Shown piece by piece: positions 4,719 through 29,217 of a DNA stretch of 64,000 bases. Position numbers and translations under genes: made by a program. Under the pieces are notes generated by a model. It did not search any database, was not told the DNA's origin, and saw nothing but the letters and a program-made list of their open reading frames with translations. The DNA lies in the NCBI RefSeq assembly GCF_017742995.1, contig NZ_CP072425.1, positions 3,915,001-3,979,000 on the forward strand. The letters run 5' to 3'. The number at the start of each line of letters is the position of its first letter. Position 1 is the stretch's first letter. This DNA comes from Pseudoalteromonas viridis (GTDB lineage Bacteria > Pseudomonadota > Gammaproteobacteria > Enterobacterales > Alteromonadaceae).

Positions 4719-6635
4719 TTAACCCAAGTGTAACCTGTGGGCCATTCCTGATTGTCTTCCGGCCTCCGTTTGCATGGATAATTGCAACACTTGCGGCTGG
4801 CAATTAAGCTCCAGGTGTTGCTTTGCACGCGTAATGCCTGTGTAAACCAGCTGACGGTTCACACCTTTACCGGCGCGCTGGATTGGAGGCAAAATCAATG
4901 CCGTATAATCAAACTCCGAGCCCTGAGACTTATGGATAGTCATGGCATACACCAGCTCAAAACTGGGTAGCCTTACGGGATAAAAATATCGCACTGTGCT
5001 TTGCTCATCAATAAAAGTTGCATAAAGCTGGCCCTGTGCATCAGGTAATAAAATGCCAATATCGCCATTAAACAGTTTAAGCTGGTAATCATTTTGCGTG
5101 ATCATAATCGGCATTCCGGCGTAAAAGCGGCTATATGGGGCGACCAGCCTGCGCTGAGCAAGTTTCTGCTCGATACGCTTATTGAGCTCTGCGACGCCAT
5201 AAGGCCCTTCTCTGACCGCTGCAAGCAGCTGGTACTGACTGAATAACGCGTGCACCTCTTCGGGCTCACTGTGATTGTGGATAGCCTCCAGGTATCGGCT
5301 GTAGTGATCCGCCGCCCGGCCAAGCAAGGCGTTATATTGATCCACACCCAGTCCGTAAAAACTCAGATCGCTGAATCCGTGATTGATCACCTGTTGCAGC
5401 TGCTGTGGATCGTTGTTATTAACCGCACTGGCCAGTTGACCAATGCCGCTATCACTTTTAAAGCGATGACTTTGCTGCAAAAATGCCGTGGCATCGGCCA
5501 GTGCATAACGGCTTGCTTTGCCCTTTAGCACGTCACGCCCGGCAAAACAGACCTGATTTAAAAAAGACGCACGATTCATGGTATATGCTGGCTGTGTACC
5601 GAGTTTAAGATGACCACATAAGTCACCCAATATACTGCCGGTATCAACCGATGCGAGTTGGTCTTTATCACCCAGCAGGATCAGTCTGGCCTGCGGCGGC
5701 AGCGCCCTGACCAGTTTATTCATCAGCGCTAGGTCAACCATAGAGGCTTCATCCACTATCAACAAATCGATATGCAGCGGGTTTTGCTGATGATGAATAA
5801 AGCGGTTGGTGTTCGGGATCACACCAAGCAAACGGTGAATGGTTTGGGCTTGCTCCGGAATAAGCGTTGCCAACTCGGGCGGCAGCGACAGCCGCCCTTT
5901 CGCACCAATGATAGACTCGCTGAGTCTGGCTGCTGCTTTGCCTGTCGGCGCCACCAGCTTAATACTCAGTGGTGCAGCCGTATACAGGGACTGTAAAATC
6001 GCCAGTAACTTGGTCACCGTTGTGGTTTTGCCAGTGCCGGGGCCTCCGGTGATCACACAAAACCCGCTGGATGCAGCCATGGCACAGGCAACCTTTTGCC
6101 AATCTATGTCCTGAGCGTTGTCGTCCGGAAAATACTGGTCCAGCAAAGCACTCAATTGCCCTGCATCTTGTTGTATCGGTTGCTCTGCCATCTGCCGAAA
6201 ACGATCACTCAGGTAAGCTTCATAGTCCGCCAGACGCCCCAGATATAATCGCCCGGCAAATAGCCGCAGCGGCCGCCCTTCACCCACCGCCGGATGCGAA
6301 TTCAATGCTGCCAGCGCCATGTCAGGGTTATTAAACGGGGTGTATGGCAAACGCTGAGCCTCTGGCACTGTGTCCGAACCGGCACTCATATCGTCCGTGT
6401 TTAAAGAAAATGGATTCTGCCAGTCAATCTCAGCCAGTAGCAAACAAGTGTGCTGACTTTGTTCCGCCCTTTGCAACAGTAAGACAAGGTAAAATACCGC
6501 GTCATACTGCCCCTGGCACAAAAGCTTTGCCAGCGCCACATCGGCGGCTCGCACACGTCGGGTGTGGATCAGTAAGGCAATATAGGCCTGATGATCCAGC
6601 TCCTCTGCCGGGAATTCAAACATGTCCTGCATCAT
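4719..6635 (-). CDS. recD: Exodeoxyribonuclease V alpha subunit RecD
   Basis: RecD is the 5'-3' helicase motor of the RecBCD complex, which processes double-strand DNA ends for homologous repair and degrades linear DNA. The 638-residue product has Walker A 'GGPGTGKT' at about 197-204, Walker B 'VDEASMVDL' near 295, and the C-terminal SF1 motifs 'YAMTIHKSQGSEFD' (V) and 'LVYTGITRAK' (VI). Length is close to E. coli RecD (608). The start ATG overlaps the recB stop in an ATGA junction, with GGAG seven bases upstream, showing translational coupling. Last gene of the recC-recB-recD operon. Confidence 0.96.
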   Translation of the reverse strand: MMQDMFEFPAEELDHQAYIALLIHTRRVRAADVALAKLLCQGQYDAVFYLVLLLQRAEQSQHTCLLLAEIDWQNPFSLNTDDMSAGSDTVPEAQRLPYTPFNNPDMALAALNSHPAVGEGRPLRLFAGRLYLGRLADYEAYLSDRFRQMAEQPIQQDAGQLSALLDQYFPDDNAQDIDWQKVACAMAASSGFCVITGGPGTGKTTTVTKLLAILQSLYTAAPLSIKLVAPTGKAAARLSESIIGAKGRLSLPPELATLIPEQAQTIHRLLGVIPNTNRFIHHQQNPLHIDLLIVDEASMVDLALMNKLVRALPPQARLILLGDKDQLASVDTGSILGDLCGHLKLGTQPAYTMNRASFLNQVCFAGRDVLKGKASRYALADATAFLQQSHRFKSDSGIGQLASAVNNNDPQQLQQVINHGFSDLSFYGLGVDQYNALLGRAADHYSRYLEAIHNHSEPEEVHALFSQYQLLAAVREGPYGVAELNKRIEQKLAQRRLVAPYSRFYAGMPIMITQNDYQLKLFNGDIGILLPDAQGQLYATFIDEQSTVRYFYPVRLPSFELVYAMTIHKSQGSEFDYTALILPPIQRAGKGVNRQLVYTGITRAKQHLELNCQPQVLQLSMQTEAGRQSGMAHRLHLG

Positions 6636-9600
6636 TCTTGTTCTCCCGTCTCAAATAAGGCATCCAGTTGCAGCAACGTCTTTTCATCCAGTTGGGTGTA
6701 GAAGCAGCCGGCCCCATCCGGTAAAGCACGTAAAAACAAGTAGTACACGCCCCCCAGATGCCGCTGCGGGCAATAATCCGCAAGGCGATGTTTTAATAAC
6801 CGGTGCAAGGCCACAGAGTAAATTAGGTACTGAAGATGATACTGATGCGAGCTCATCGCCAGCGCCAGGTTATCGGCCTGATAATCCGCCGCTGCATCCC
6901 CGAGATAGTTTGATTTATAGTCGAGAATAAAATAGCGCCCCTGCCAGACAAAGATCAGGTCAATAAAGCCTTTGAGCATGCCCTGTACCTCATCAAAACG
7001 TAAATGGCTCGGCGCGCCTGTGATTTGCGCTACTAATTTGTTTAATTTGGTATAGGACAGGCGTTTAAGTGGTAACTGAAATTCCATCTCCACCAGACAA
7101 TCTGAGACGCTCAGCTGGCTCAGCGTCAGCTCCGGAAGCGGGTTGAGAGGCGTACTCAGACACCCCAGGATCCACTGCTCCACGGTTTCCTGCCATACCG
7201 TATCAAGATGATATTTCTCCAGACAAGCCTGGGTTGCTTCTGCTAAGGTCAGTTTGTCTGGCCGGGTAGGCGCATGGGGCGCCGTGAAGTCAATTTGCTC
7301 AAAGATCTCATGTAAACAACTGCCGGCGCGCGCACCTTTAACAAAGGTGTAAGGGGTAAAGCGTTTGATCACGCTCGGCTCGGGCAGGTCAATTTTATGG
7401 TTCTCATCCAGTGCCCCCACCGGGCGCTCTGCGCTGGTTTCATGGTAACTCAACTGGCTAAAACTGGTCATTCGCCAGTTTTGCTCAATCGCTACTTCGA
7501 CAGGCCGACTATGCAACAACTGTGTTTCCTGGGTATGCTGCGCCTGATACACACAAGGCGCTATGCGCAGCACCTCATACGCCATCCCCTCGTGGCGTGA
7601 ACACAGGTCGCGAAGCTGGTCATGCCATTGGGCTGCGTCTGTGATTTTATCCTTGTCAAACAACACATGCCCCAGAGCACATTGCTGGATCCCTGGCTTT
7701 TTACTACGTCCCAGTGGCAGGTTATACAGGCCCAGGCTGCAAAAATGGACCGCCCGGGTCAGTGCTACATACAACAGGCGAATATCCTCCGCAAGACGCT
7801 CACGCTCGGCATTATGCTGTGCGTTATCGTCCGCATCCAGATTAAGCACCAGCTCACCATTTTCATGATAAATCACTTCACTGGCCTCACGGTATGCGGT
7901 GGCAAACGGCATATAAACCAGCGGATATTCCAGTCCTTTGGAGGCGTGCATAGTGACGATTTTGACCAGATCGGCATCGCTTTCGAGGCGCAGCTGGGTG
8001 CCTTCATAGCTGGGGTTGGCACACTGAGCCTGCAACCAGCGCATCACCCTGTGTGTGCCTTCCAGCTCTATCTGTTTATGCTGCAACAACTCGGCCAGAT
8101 GCCGGTAATCTGTCAGCCAGCGCTCAACTTCATGACCTGCCTGCTGCCACAGCGTAACCAGTTGATTGTCGACCAGTAAAGACTCCAGTGTGGCCATTGC
8201 GCCTTGCTGATACCACAGCTGTTTAAGCTGGGCAAACTGCATCAGATAACTCTGCCACAGCCCTTCCTGAGTGCGTAATGCAAAGATCTGTTGCTCGTTT
8301 AGGGCGAACAAGGGACCGGCCAGCACGCCGCGTAATGCCGCTTCATCATAACTGCCATGTACAACGTGCAGTAACTGCCAGACAGCCAGCGCGACAGGCT
8401 GCGAAAACACACTGTCACGGGCCAGATAAACACTGCTTACGCCAGCCTTTTGTAACGCCTGTTTTATCACACTGGCTTCAACGCGATCCCGAACCAGCAC
8501 ACAAATATCCGCAGCCAGCACCGGGCGCTTGCCAATGCGAGCACGCCCCTCCTGCGCCTGGGTAAGCAATTGTGCAATTTGCGCCGCAAAGCCCTCGGCG
8601 AGCTGTGGATAGGCGCTGGCTTTGCTGGTAACCGGCGCGTCGTCATCTTCAAGCACATTGAATTGCAATGCCGCAGGCTCAGTGCCATCCAGAGTAAAGG
8701 TATTATCGGCGTCTTTGCCCGCGGCCTCGACTTCAATAAACGGAATGTCGCGGTTAAAAATAAAACTGTCGGCTTGCGCGGTAAAAATGGCATTCACTGC
8801 ACTGACCACGCGCCGGGCCGAGCGATAATTCTTATCCAAAGTAAACTGGCGAGTTTCATCCACCTGATGTTTCGCACCAATGTAAGTGAAGATATCCGCA
8901 CCACGAAAACCGTATATGGCCTGCTTGGGGTCGCCTATCATGGTCAGGCCTTGGGCGCCGTCAGTGCCATAGATGCGAGAAAAGATACCAAACTGAATGG
9001 GATCTGTGTCCTGGAATTCGTCTATCATCGCAACCGGATACAGCTGCGCAATTTTTTTAGCCAGCGTCTCACCCTGCGCACCATGTAATGCCTGATGCAA
9101 GTTTTGTAGCAGATCGTCTGGCGAGATAAGGCTGTGTTCAAGCTTTGCCTGACTCATCAGCGCGCGCACTTCTTTCAGTGCATGCTGCAACAAGGCAATG
9201 GATAATCCTTTGGACACATTTTGATGTAACAGCGCCATCTCATCAAACCAGCCCAACGCCGGGTGGACAATCGGCTTACCCGTTTTGGTATAGTTTTTCG
9301 GGTCGCTCAGCTGAGCCTCTCCCCATAAGGCAAACGAATGCTTGCTGCTACCAAATTCAAAGTACCAGTCGTCGCCCATACAATAGTCGATCAGCGCCTG
9401 GATATTGGCCGGGCGTCCCGGCGCTTTGCTCTTTGAAATTCCACTGTCGCGCAATAACTGGAAAAAATCAGAGTTTAACAGCTGTTGTTTAAACCCTGCC
9501 GCCCGGCGCTGATACTCAGCTCTTTGCTCCAGCACGACTGCCAGGTCCAGCTCAGGCGCCAGACGGGCATCACCGCGTTTAAGCAAAGGATAAAGGCGCT

Positions 9601-27623: not shown

Positions 27624-28472
27624 ATGCTGTATTTGGGGTGTCCTCAGTGGAGCTCTGCACACTGGAAAGGTCGATTTTTCAGCAGTGATTGCAAAACCGC
27701 GGATATGTTAGGCGAATATGCCCAGATCTTTAATAGTGTTGAGGGCAATACCAGCTTCTACGCCAATCCAAAACCAGACACTATCGCCACCTGGTCAAAC
27801 GCAGTACCAGAAAACTTCCGCTTTACCTTTAAAATCCCCAAGAAGATTTCTCACGAGCTTGCCTTAAGTCAATATCAGCGCGAACTTAAGCACTGGCTCA
27901 CACTGTTTTCGCCTTTGTTTTCACGACTGGGAATGGTGTTGCTACAACTGCCAGCCAGCTGCAGCCCAAGCTACCTTGGACGCATTGCTGACTTTATAGA
28001 TCAGTTTCCAAAAGAGCTCACTTTGGGTATTGAAGTCAGACACAGAGCGTTTTTTGCTAAAGGGGATGCCGAAAAGCGCTTTAATCAGTTGCTGATGCAC
28101 ACCGGCGTGAATCGCATCATTATGGACACGCGTCCTCTTTTTAGTGAATCGCCCAGTACCCCCGCTATTATTGATGCACAACAGAAGAAACCTCGCGTGC
28201 CAGTCAACGTCATTGCCACGGCCCAGGCGCCTGTATTACGCTTCGTAGGATGCTCCGATTTGGCAGCAAACAAGGCCTTTTATGCCCCCTGGTTAAGCAA
28301 AATTCGCTACTGGCTCAAGGAAGGCCGCACGCCTTATATCTTTTTTCACACGGCAGATAACTATGACGCGCCGCTGCTGGCAAGGCAATTTGTGCGCGAT
28401 CTGGGCGTTGAGCACCCGGTGCTGGACCCCTTCGTAGCAGAAAAACAACCCTCTCAACAACTGTTACTTTAG
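27624..28472 (+). CDS. DUF72 family protein (YecE-like)
   Basis: DUF72 proteins have a TIM-barrel-like fold; their function is not established. Family features are visible: 'YLGCPQWSSAHWKGRFF' at the N-terminus, 'YAQIFNSVEGNTSFYANPKPDTIATWSNAVPENFRFTFKIPK' in pieces, 'LPKELTLGIEVRHRAFF'-like central strand, and 'PYIFFHTADNYDAPLLARQF' near the end. The ATG follows GGGAG. Its position beside aspS recurs in enteric bacteria (yecE). A 65-base gap with an inverted repeat separates it from the small peptide gene downstream, so co-transcription is possible. Confidence 0.88.
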   Translation: MLYLGCPQWSSAHWKGRFFSSDCKTADMLGEYAQIFNSVEGNTSFYANPKPDTIATWSNAVPENFRFTFKIPKKISHELALSQYQRELKHWLTLFSPLFSRLGMVLLQLPASCSPSYLGRIADFIDQFPKELTLGIEVRHRAFFAKGDAEKRFNQLLMHTGVNRIIMDTRPLFSESPSTPAIIDAQQKKPRVPVNVIATAQAPVLRFVGCSDLAANKAFYAPWLSKIRYWLKEGRTPYIFFHTADNYDAPLLARQFVRDLGVEHPVLDPFVAEKQPSQQLLL

Positions 28473-28482
28473 CCAATTGTTC

Positions 28483-28513
28483 AGGTCCAATTTTTATAGG
28501 ATGTTTAGGACCT
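28483..28513 (+). other. Inverted repeat between the DUF72 gene and the peptide gene
   Basis: AGGTCC (28483-28488) pairs with GGACCT (28508-28513) across 19 AT-rich bases. It lies 24 bases upstream of the peptide start codon, so it could be an operator or a hairpin in the 5' leader; no T-run follows, so it is not an obvious terminator. Confidence 0.4.
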
Positions 28514-28537
28514 CTAACCATAGTAAGGAAAATAAAA

Positions 28538-28702
28538 ATGCTATTAAAACTAACTAAAAAACCCGTAAAACAACTATCTGCAGACAACAACGCTATCCCT
28601 GCTCAAGCTACTCGTGAGGTTGCTGGCGCTATGCAACTGGCGCGCCCTATGGGTAACTCTCGTGCCTCGGATTGTTGTGCTATGCCTACAAAGCCGTATT
28701 AA
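28538..28702 (+). CDS. Candidate RiPP (lanthipeptide-type) precursor peptide, orphan
   Basis: A 54-residue gene. The ATG follows AAGGA at eight bases, and codon choice is that of well-expressed genes (six of nine alanines GCT; CGT, GGT, TCT, ACT elsewhere). The first ~31 residues look like a leader: basic 'KLTKKPVKQLSAD', then 'AIPAQATREVAGA', a double-glycine-type cleavage end close to the VAGG of class I lanthipeptide-like precursors. The remaining ~23 residues end in 'SRASDCCAMPTKPY', with two adjacent Cys plus Ser and Thr that could be crosslinked. No LanB/LanC/LanM, radical SAM enzyme or peptidase transporter lies nearby. Family placement is inference; it could also be an unmodified small protein. 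Confidence 0.6.
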   Translation: MLLKLTKKPVKQLSADNNAIPAQATREVAGAMQLARPMGNSRASDCCAMPTKPY

Positions 28703-28710
28703 TCGCAGAT

Positions 28711-28739
28711 AAAAGTAGAGAGGGTGAGCACCACTCTCT
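28711..28739 (-). terminator. Probable terminator of the GFA gene, facing the peptide gene
   Basis: AGAGAG-GGTG-AG-CACC-A-CTCTCT forms a hairpin with one bulged A (28717-28739), followed on the minus strand by ACTTTTATC. It may also end the peptide transcript on the plus strand, though no T-run follows there. Confidence 0.6.
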
Positions 28740-28742
28740 CTA

Positions 28743-29147
28743 TCACCGACCTGGCTCCTTGCCTTCGTAGCAAGGTAAGTTGGCATCCATCTCTTCCCAG
28801 TTCGCTTTAGACGTCACATAATTGTGCGACATTGGCCGCTCAATGATGTCACAATCCAGAATACCCAGCCTTAGTCTTAGTTTTTCGGGATTATCCTGAT
28901 TAGAACTGAATAAGGGAGATGCGCAAACACCACAAAAATGCCTTAACCGGCCTGGTTTAAATGCATATTCTCGGATCTGGTCCTCACCAGACACGATCTT
29001 CAGATCAGCTCGGTTAACAAACCCATTGGTGGCATAGGCCGTACCAGATGATTTACGACACAAAGAGCAGTGGCAATGAATGATACTCGTAATGGCACCA
29101 CTGAGCACCAGCTTAACAGCACCACATAAACAGCTCGCCTGATACAT
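28743..29147 (-). CDS. GFA family (CENP-V/GFA) zinc protein
   Basis: Small zinc protein of the glutathione-dependent formaldehyde-activating (Gfa-like) fold. Zinc-ligand cysteines are in 'ASCLCGAV' (C6, C8), 'HCHCSLCRKSSG' and 'HFCGVCASP', the canonical CxC, CxxC and CxxC arrangement. Length of 134 residues is typical. Many members of the family are not formaldehyde-active, so the substrate is unknown. It is convergent with the peptide gene and divergent from the YgjP-like gene. Confidence 0.9.
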   Translation of the reverse strand: MYQASCLCGAVKLVLSGAITSIIHCHCSLCRKSSGTAYATNGFVNRADLKIVSGEDQIREYAFKPGRLRHFCGVCASPLFSSNQDNPEKLRLRLGILDCDIIERPMSHNYVTSKANWEEMDANLPCYEGKEPGR

Positions 29148-29217
29148 TTGTCTTTTTTCCTGCTATGATCGTAAACCCTTAGCTTAAAATGTTCGTCCCC
29201 GGATTACTACCATCACC

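Follow-up and report, generated by a model that had tools for sequence, protein, structure and literature searches.

The prochlorosins and synechococsins of marine picocyanobacteria are lanthipeptides with scattered precursors, of which ProcM has 29 and SyncM 79 (PMC10783134). Each repertoire is handled by one class II LanM, and a CCG motif has been tied to promiscuous enzymes of this kind (PMC10027976). Class I lanthipeptides are known from Pseudoalteromonas itself, including PciA of Pseudoalteromonas citrea, whose modified form was made in E. coli (PMC9993889), and pseudorosins A-C of P. flavipulchra with the dehydratase PsfB (Wang et al. 2023, cited in PMC12819058 and PMC10727000). Thalassomonasins A and B and the viridisins of Thalassomonas are likewise marine gammaproteobacterial class I products, and their 2-3 precursors lie in one cluster (PMC11433236). 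For Pseudoalteromonas viridis, the paper on strain BBR56 reports a class I lanthipeptide region at chromosome 1, 1,199,639-1,224,010, and places this lan cluster nearest to thalassomonasin, at 48%; the label Lanthipeptide_LanB_RRE occurs in that paper, and no word of its main text begins with "precursor", "leader" or "LanB". For Pseudoalteromonas and Thalassomonas, class I lanthipeptides encoded in clusters are thus already known. Among open-licence PMC papers, a scope that leaves out the two most relevant ones, no account of scattered class I substrates was found.

The DNA analysed here, referred to as the window, is a stretch of 64,000 nucleotides from P. viridis that carries a small gene likely to encode one of the roughly 29-30 dispersed precursors served by a single set of class I lanthipeptide enzymes. 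As with the prochlorosins and synechococsins, one enzyme set stands opposite many scattered precursor genes with variable cores and a kept leader ending in GG; the genome has 30 such genes, one LanB place and one LanC place. The enzymes and the leader differ. Instead of one LanM, P. viridis has a separate LanB and LanC, and in a search by the LANC_like domain the only place of the genome is a free-standing cyclase of 406 aa, which carries an ordinary CHG motif, unlike the CCG of promiscuous LanMs. The leader is distinct from the prochlorosin leader, and no Nif11-type assignment is obtained for the window peptide, which has no Pfam family at E<=10. PciA shares genus and class with the P. viridis family but has a cluster-borne precursor, and the thalassomonasins and viridisins differ in the same respect. 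This dispersed class I system is the larger finding, beyond what an earlier sequence-only reading of the window saw.

The small gene and its orthologues

The features of the locus, in window positions, are as follows.

27624-28472, plus strand: DUF72 gene (Pfam PF01904), a neighbour marking the conserved site by synteny
28525-28529, plus strand: Shine-Dalgarno sequence AAGGA, 8 bases ahead of the ATG and kept in 7/7 orthologues
28538-28702, plus strand: putative precursor peptide gene of 54 codons and a stop, with ATG at 28538 and stop at 28700-28702
28538-28630, plus strand: leader, residues 1-31, ending in VAGA, assigned by leader profile A2
28631-28699, plus strand: predicted core, residues 32-54 (23 residues with 2 Ser, 1 Thr and 2 Cys), the split being placed by inference after the GA motif
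28652-28678, plus strand: core unit GNSRASDCC (residues 39-47), without variation across the 11 orthologue rows aligned
28743-29147, minus strand: GFA-domain gene (Pfam PF04828), a neighbour marking the conserved site by synteny

The leader of the window peptide is MLLKLTKKPVKQLSADNNAIPAQATREVAGA and its 23-residue predicted core is MQLARPMGNSRASDCCAMPTKPY. Re-reading of the open reading frame returned the coordinates, ribosome binding site and peptide that the sequence-only reading had described, along with the Ser, Thr and Cys pair that it had seen in the core. No family in Pfam or NCBIfam matches the peptide at E<=10, and as a single query against 5.8 billion proteins it found, besides itself, one relative only. 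A simple scan of the surroundings found no sigma-70- or terminator-like sites.

Within the genus, the gene is matched at E<=1e-8 in 8 of 108 genomes, its own included, and syntenic orthologues occur in 7 of the 107 others, each flanked by the same DUF72 and GFA genes, which are 85-88% identical in these seven. Homologues keeping both the leader and the Cys pair, whose absence had been named as grounds for dismissing the gene, are therefore present in relatives. The ratio of nonsynonymous to synonymous change, for which a neutral value had been named as a second such ground, is below one. Seven comparisons with the window gene give dN/dS of 0.10-0.24 (Nei-Gojobori; dS near saturation), the pooled pN/pS against the window gene is 0.39 (leader 0.27, core 0.48), and among the seven relatives it is 0.10 for the whole gene, the leader and the core alike. 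Judged by orthology and substitution pattern, the small gene at 28538-28702 is real and under purifying selection.

A duplicated core unit at a variable site

Across the 11 aligned orthologue rows (alignment A4), 23 columns are invariant, those of GNSRASDCC included; the alignment omits locus L155 and the duplicate L152, both of which contain the unit. In five genomes (G024, G030, G033, G093 and G105) the unit is present twice at the same site, each copy behind GG, and the two copies differ at 4-6 of 27 bases, all of the differences being silent. The window gene has M rather than G before the G of the unit, and in the relatives P0059 and P0060 a different first unit, ISADxxCC, is followed by GGNSRASDCC. 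NSRASDCC is probably the working part of the peptide, given that it does not change where the residues around it vary and that sister species carry it in duplicate. An invariant unit, duplicated at a conserved site, points to the GNSRASDCC core as a product that is kept.

The conserved site was inspected in 14 chosen genomes, nine with LanB and five without. No leader peptide stands there in the five genomes lacking LanB, nor in G040, which has LanB. Among the other LanB-bearing genomes, G052 has a decayed-looking copy, G026 a fragment together with another leader peptide, and G034 another leader peptide, while the remaining five carry the double unit. The stretch following the DUF72 gene (window 28473-29217; loci L170-L183) behaves as a variable site. 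Most of the inspected LanB-bearing genomes have one or two leader peptides in it, usually with the GFA gene (G033 is without), and neither a leader peptide nor a GFA match is found in G040 and the five genomes lacking LanB.

Thirty genes with one leader

The P. viridis genome (5.55 Mb in two contigs, 99.99% complete) returned 13 places at E<=10 when searched with the window peptide; a profile of 14 peptides found 31, of which 30 scored E<=1e-5. The 30 leader-family genes are dispersed over both contigs, some in pairs, and each has a possible ATG start preceded by an AGGA-type Shine-Dalgarno sequence. Their leader consensus is MKLxLxKKxxKxLxxxxxLxxxxTPxVAGG, taken from profile A2, whose 29 rows omit the Cys-free member C1:1237172 that is counted among the 30. 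The cores differ from gene to gene and have a Cys content of 11.4%; Cys is present in 29/30, two or more Cys in 28/30, and Ser plus Thr equal or outnumber Cys in 29/30. Called an orphan from the window alone, the gene is indeed alone locally, but it is one of 30 in the genome that have the same leader.

The surroundings of the 30 genes contain 83 mechanically called open reading frames of at least 100 aa within about 1.5 kb, some counted twice where four pairs of loci overlap. Of the 56 flanking ones scanned, 42 match a Pfam family, none of them a RiPP-modifying enzyme, and 14 have no match. Beyond the Shine-Dalgarno sequence and A-rich words barely above shuffles, no upstream motif is common to the 30 genes. 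The lanthipeptide leader models NF038158 and NF038153 (lant_leader_L1a and L1b), a search with such models having been proposed as a check, do not match the window peptide; 3 of 33 family precursors match each model weakly at E<=1, with best values of 0.0011 and 0.089.

Two members of the family deserve separate mention. The gene at C1:1237172-1237333 (L051) encodes the sole Cys-free core of the 30, TSEGSSHGTILDMD, and lies about 2.4 kb from a SPASM gene. The paralogue at C1:3609376-3609513 (L037) and the relative P0052 share a conserved Cys core, YGACxTxPxxCPTAYIC; a relative with this core is labelled TIGR04149 rSAM-modified RiPP in databases, a naming that the leader may have misled.

One enzyme cluster, megabases away

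A single LanB place, a single LanC place and a single C39 place occur in the genome, all on the minus strand within C1:1209639-1216338, and an HlyD-type adaptor is encoded beyond them. The proposal that the modifying enzymes are encoded elsewhere is thus supported, with LanB, LanC and the C39-ABC gene together at C1:1.210-1.216 Mb, and the genome does have the modification system whose absence would have spoken against the proposed precursor. The statement that no modifying enzyme or transporter is encoded nearby also agrees with a search confined to LanB, LanC, C39 and SPASM, all of whose places in the genome fall outside the window. Counted along the contig, the window gene and the cluster are 2.7 Mb apart; were the contig a circle, the opposite path would measure 1.5 Mb. 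Only one member of the leader family is near the cluster; it starts at C1:1219353, past the HlyD gene and a glmU-like gene. The start of LanB lies 10,000 bases inside the first figure of the region published for BBR56, and the end of LanC 10,000 inside the second, if the second Met is used, which very probably makes this the genome of BBR56.

The domains of the cluster are complete and score above curated cut-offs. LanB has 1049 aa and both dehydratase domains and is related to proteins of solved structure, namely 9g04, 5ehk (named lantibiotic dehydratase) and NisB; LanC matches NisC and LanC-like proteins. LanB contains RPTPFGLF, RYGDPDWHLRLR, YEREVERYGG and SLLHMHNNR, LanC contains GLAHG, WCYG and CHG, and the C39 protein contains the Cys, His and Asp motifs, all of which we take to be typical of active enzymes. 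The genome therefore holds LanB and LanC, together with a leader joined to a core that contains Ser/Thr and Cys, as a class I lanthipeptide system would; a precursor inside the enzyme cluster, usual but not strictly defining for the class, is not found for the window gene, which is megabases away.

A separate group of genes lies at L186 (C1:1226001-1242000), where a SPASM radical SAM gene is near a gene for a 277-aa repeat protein (5212-6045 and 7491-8807 of that locus, minus strand). The SPASM gene best matches nif11-class maturase 3, below the cut-off of that model, and the 277-aa protein consists of tandem repeats of about 25 residues (GVDVDAQGKIIIITAEREEALKSLA). An M16-like peptidase, recognised by eye, and ABC transporter genes accompany them, with an integrase-like gene in between. 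This locus is perhaps another multi-core RiPP system.

The leader family follows LanB

Among 108 genomes of the genus, LanB occurs in 51, four of which have more than one match. The leader profile finds members at E<=1e-3 in 52/108 genomes, namely the same 51 and G096, one of the 57 genomes lacking LanB, with a single match at 6.4e-4. Fisher's test gives p 2.5e-30 for this co-occurrence, a value that is overstated, as the genomes are related and it was computed without a species tree. Each LanB-bearing genome has 1-71 leader genes (median 20; ten or more in 41/51), at least 1,327 in total; these counts include Cys-free members and may be lower bounds, with at most 75 candidates scored per genus genome and at most 20 per family genome. 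C39 is present in 81/108 genomes, all 51 with LanB included, and none of the 30 genomes with C39 and without LanB has a leader gene, 14 of them having strong C39 matches (E<1e-25). As far as these genomes tell, C39 by itself does not bring the leader family.

A sample of 395 genomes of the family, taken from a larger set, includes 36 with the leader, 43 with LanB and 35 with both, G096 being the only one with the leader and no LanB. Eight of the 43 genomes with LanB have no leader match; in seven of these LanB is divergent or fragmentary, and the eighth, G135, has a strong LanB in an 81%-complete genome. Counted by genus, the leader and a strong LanB (E<1e-100) coincide: of 52 genera the same 11 have both, and in four of these the leader matches are weak (1.6e-5 to 2.7e-4). 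Assignment of the window peptide as a class I lanthipeptide-type precursor, made from its sequence alone, is thus supported by the LanB and LanC of the genome and by a leader that tracks LanB in genus and family. Because LanB, LanC and C39 share one cluster, the co-occurrence would look alike whether the peptides are modified or only exported by this transporter.

Leader relatives beside lanB

In other species, relatives of the leader are found next to the enzymes. A leader-profile peptide is present in the flank of 25/37 named LanB contigs of the genome collection, and in 12/37 lanB has such a peptide with Cys no more than 2 kb away on its 5' side; these 12 include contigs of P. flavipulchra, P. 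piscicida, P. peptidolytica, P. phenolica and P. denitrificans. On several other LanB contigs the leader peptides are all Cys-free and farther off, and in 12/37, including all five of rubra type, no leader peptide was found in the flank. The P. flavipulchra contig encodes a LanB 62% identical to that of P. viridis, with a leader-family gene 1.4 kb from lanB whose leader is identical to the window leader at 15/31 positions. The idea of a new family holds insofar as the window peptide matches no NCBIfam or Pfam model; it fails insofar as several named species have leader relatives adjoining lanB, and publications already describe class I lanthipeptides from this genus.

All 53 leader-family peptides at the 39 best-scoring loci of genus and family have Cys in the core; these loci are the best matches and not a random sample, one comes from P. 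viridis itself, and one leader/core split is misplaced. In the luteoviolacea/aurantia group, Cys-free leader-profile peptides near lanB were observed at L117, L121, L133 and L143 (at about 2.2-3.0 kb) and at L118, L122, L124 and L131. Their cores have SSDTSVTxPS or NTDTVTQ-like repeats, and such peptides are perhaps dehydrated only, or perhaps substrates of another enzyme. With Cys-free peptides of this kind near lanB, possession of the leader is no guarantee of a lanthionine.

Proposed route and competing explanations

In the proposed route, LanB would read the leader and, using glutamyl-tRNA, dehydrate Ser41 and Ser44, after which LanC would join these residues to Cys46 and Cys47 in two lanthionine bridges. 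Cleavage by the C39 domain is predicted directly behind AGA, and a product of about 23 residues would leave through the pump, aided by an outer-membrane partner whose gene would lie elsewhere. The calculated mass of the predicted 23-residue core is 2527.1 Da in unmodified form and 2491.1 Da with two dehydrations. A single shared LanB/LanC would act in trans on all scattered precursors; this modification is what we infer from the enzyme families named.

That the small gene is a chance open reading frame has next to no probability. In its favour, the gene lacks an annotation-model match, and a simple scan shows neither promoter-like nor terminator-like sites; against this are its orthologues, synteny and selection and the 29 other leader-family genes. 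The candidate was rejected on the leader profile built without the window peptide, which scores the window frame at E 2.2e-11 and the next best of 1472 six-frame window frames at 0.39. An unmodified double-glycine peptide, resembling a microcin or class II bacteriocin with disulfides, would be cleaved by the C39 ABC transporter encoded in the lan cluster and leave the cell through it, untouched by LanB and LanC. The GG/GA end of the leader suits this explanation, as does the position of the transporter in the same cluster, from which co-occurrence of the leader family with LanB would equally follow; yet the 14 genomes with a strong C39 (E<1e-25) and no LanB have no leader gene, Ser plus Thr equal or exceed Cys in nearly all cores, and leader relatives adjoin lanB, so that we regard it as unlikely.

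LanB and LanC might instead modify only precursors adjacent to the cluster, the scattered copies being relics or serving another use, such as leader display. The decayed-looking copy in G052, the fragment in G026 and the one member of 30 without Cys would fit; purifying selection on the window gene, its invariant core unit, the Cys retained in the other 29 cores and the presence of only one member near the P. viridis cluster, beyond the glmU-like gene, make it very improbable. A radical-SAM-modified RiPP of the TIGR04149 type is judged, on a SPASM survey of the P. viridis genome, a still fainter prospect: that model is matched by one of 33 precursors scanned (1.1e-4), a database relative with a Cys-containing core bears its name and the genome has two SPASM places, but the window peptide matches no NCBIfam model, TIGR04149 included, neither SPASM place is near the window gene, and the less distant of the two best resembles a nif11-class maturase, scoring under the cut-off of that model.

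Significance of a dispersed class I repertoire

The class I lanthipeptide system proposed here may well be the class I counterpart of the prochlorosins, and on balance we favour this broader view. In it, half of Pseudoalteromonas and about ten other genera would have one LanB/LanC, with a CHG cyclase, that serves up to about 70 unlinked and separately evolving precursors per genome; in the lineage of the window gene, GGNSRASDCC would have been doubled or paired with another unit to give two-core precursors.

The precursor search of Walker et al. (2020) was confined to seven genes on either side of the enzymes. As mining usually looks beside the enzymes, a system with most of its substrates far away has gone largely unseen, and the named database relatives of the family are nearly all called hypothetical protein. 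The overlooked family amounts to at least 1,327 genes in 51 genomes. If the proposal is true, these scattered precursors would offer naturally occurring substrates with which to test leader recognition by LanB. They would also provide a second, independent case for asking why some bacteria keep large scattered lanthipeptide repertoires, one with class I enzymes, an ordinary cyclase and hosts amenable to growth and editing.
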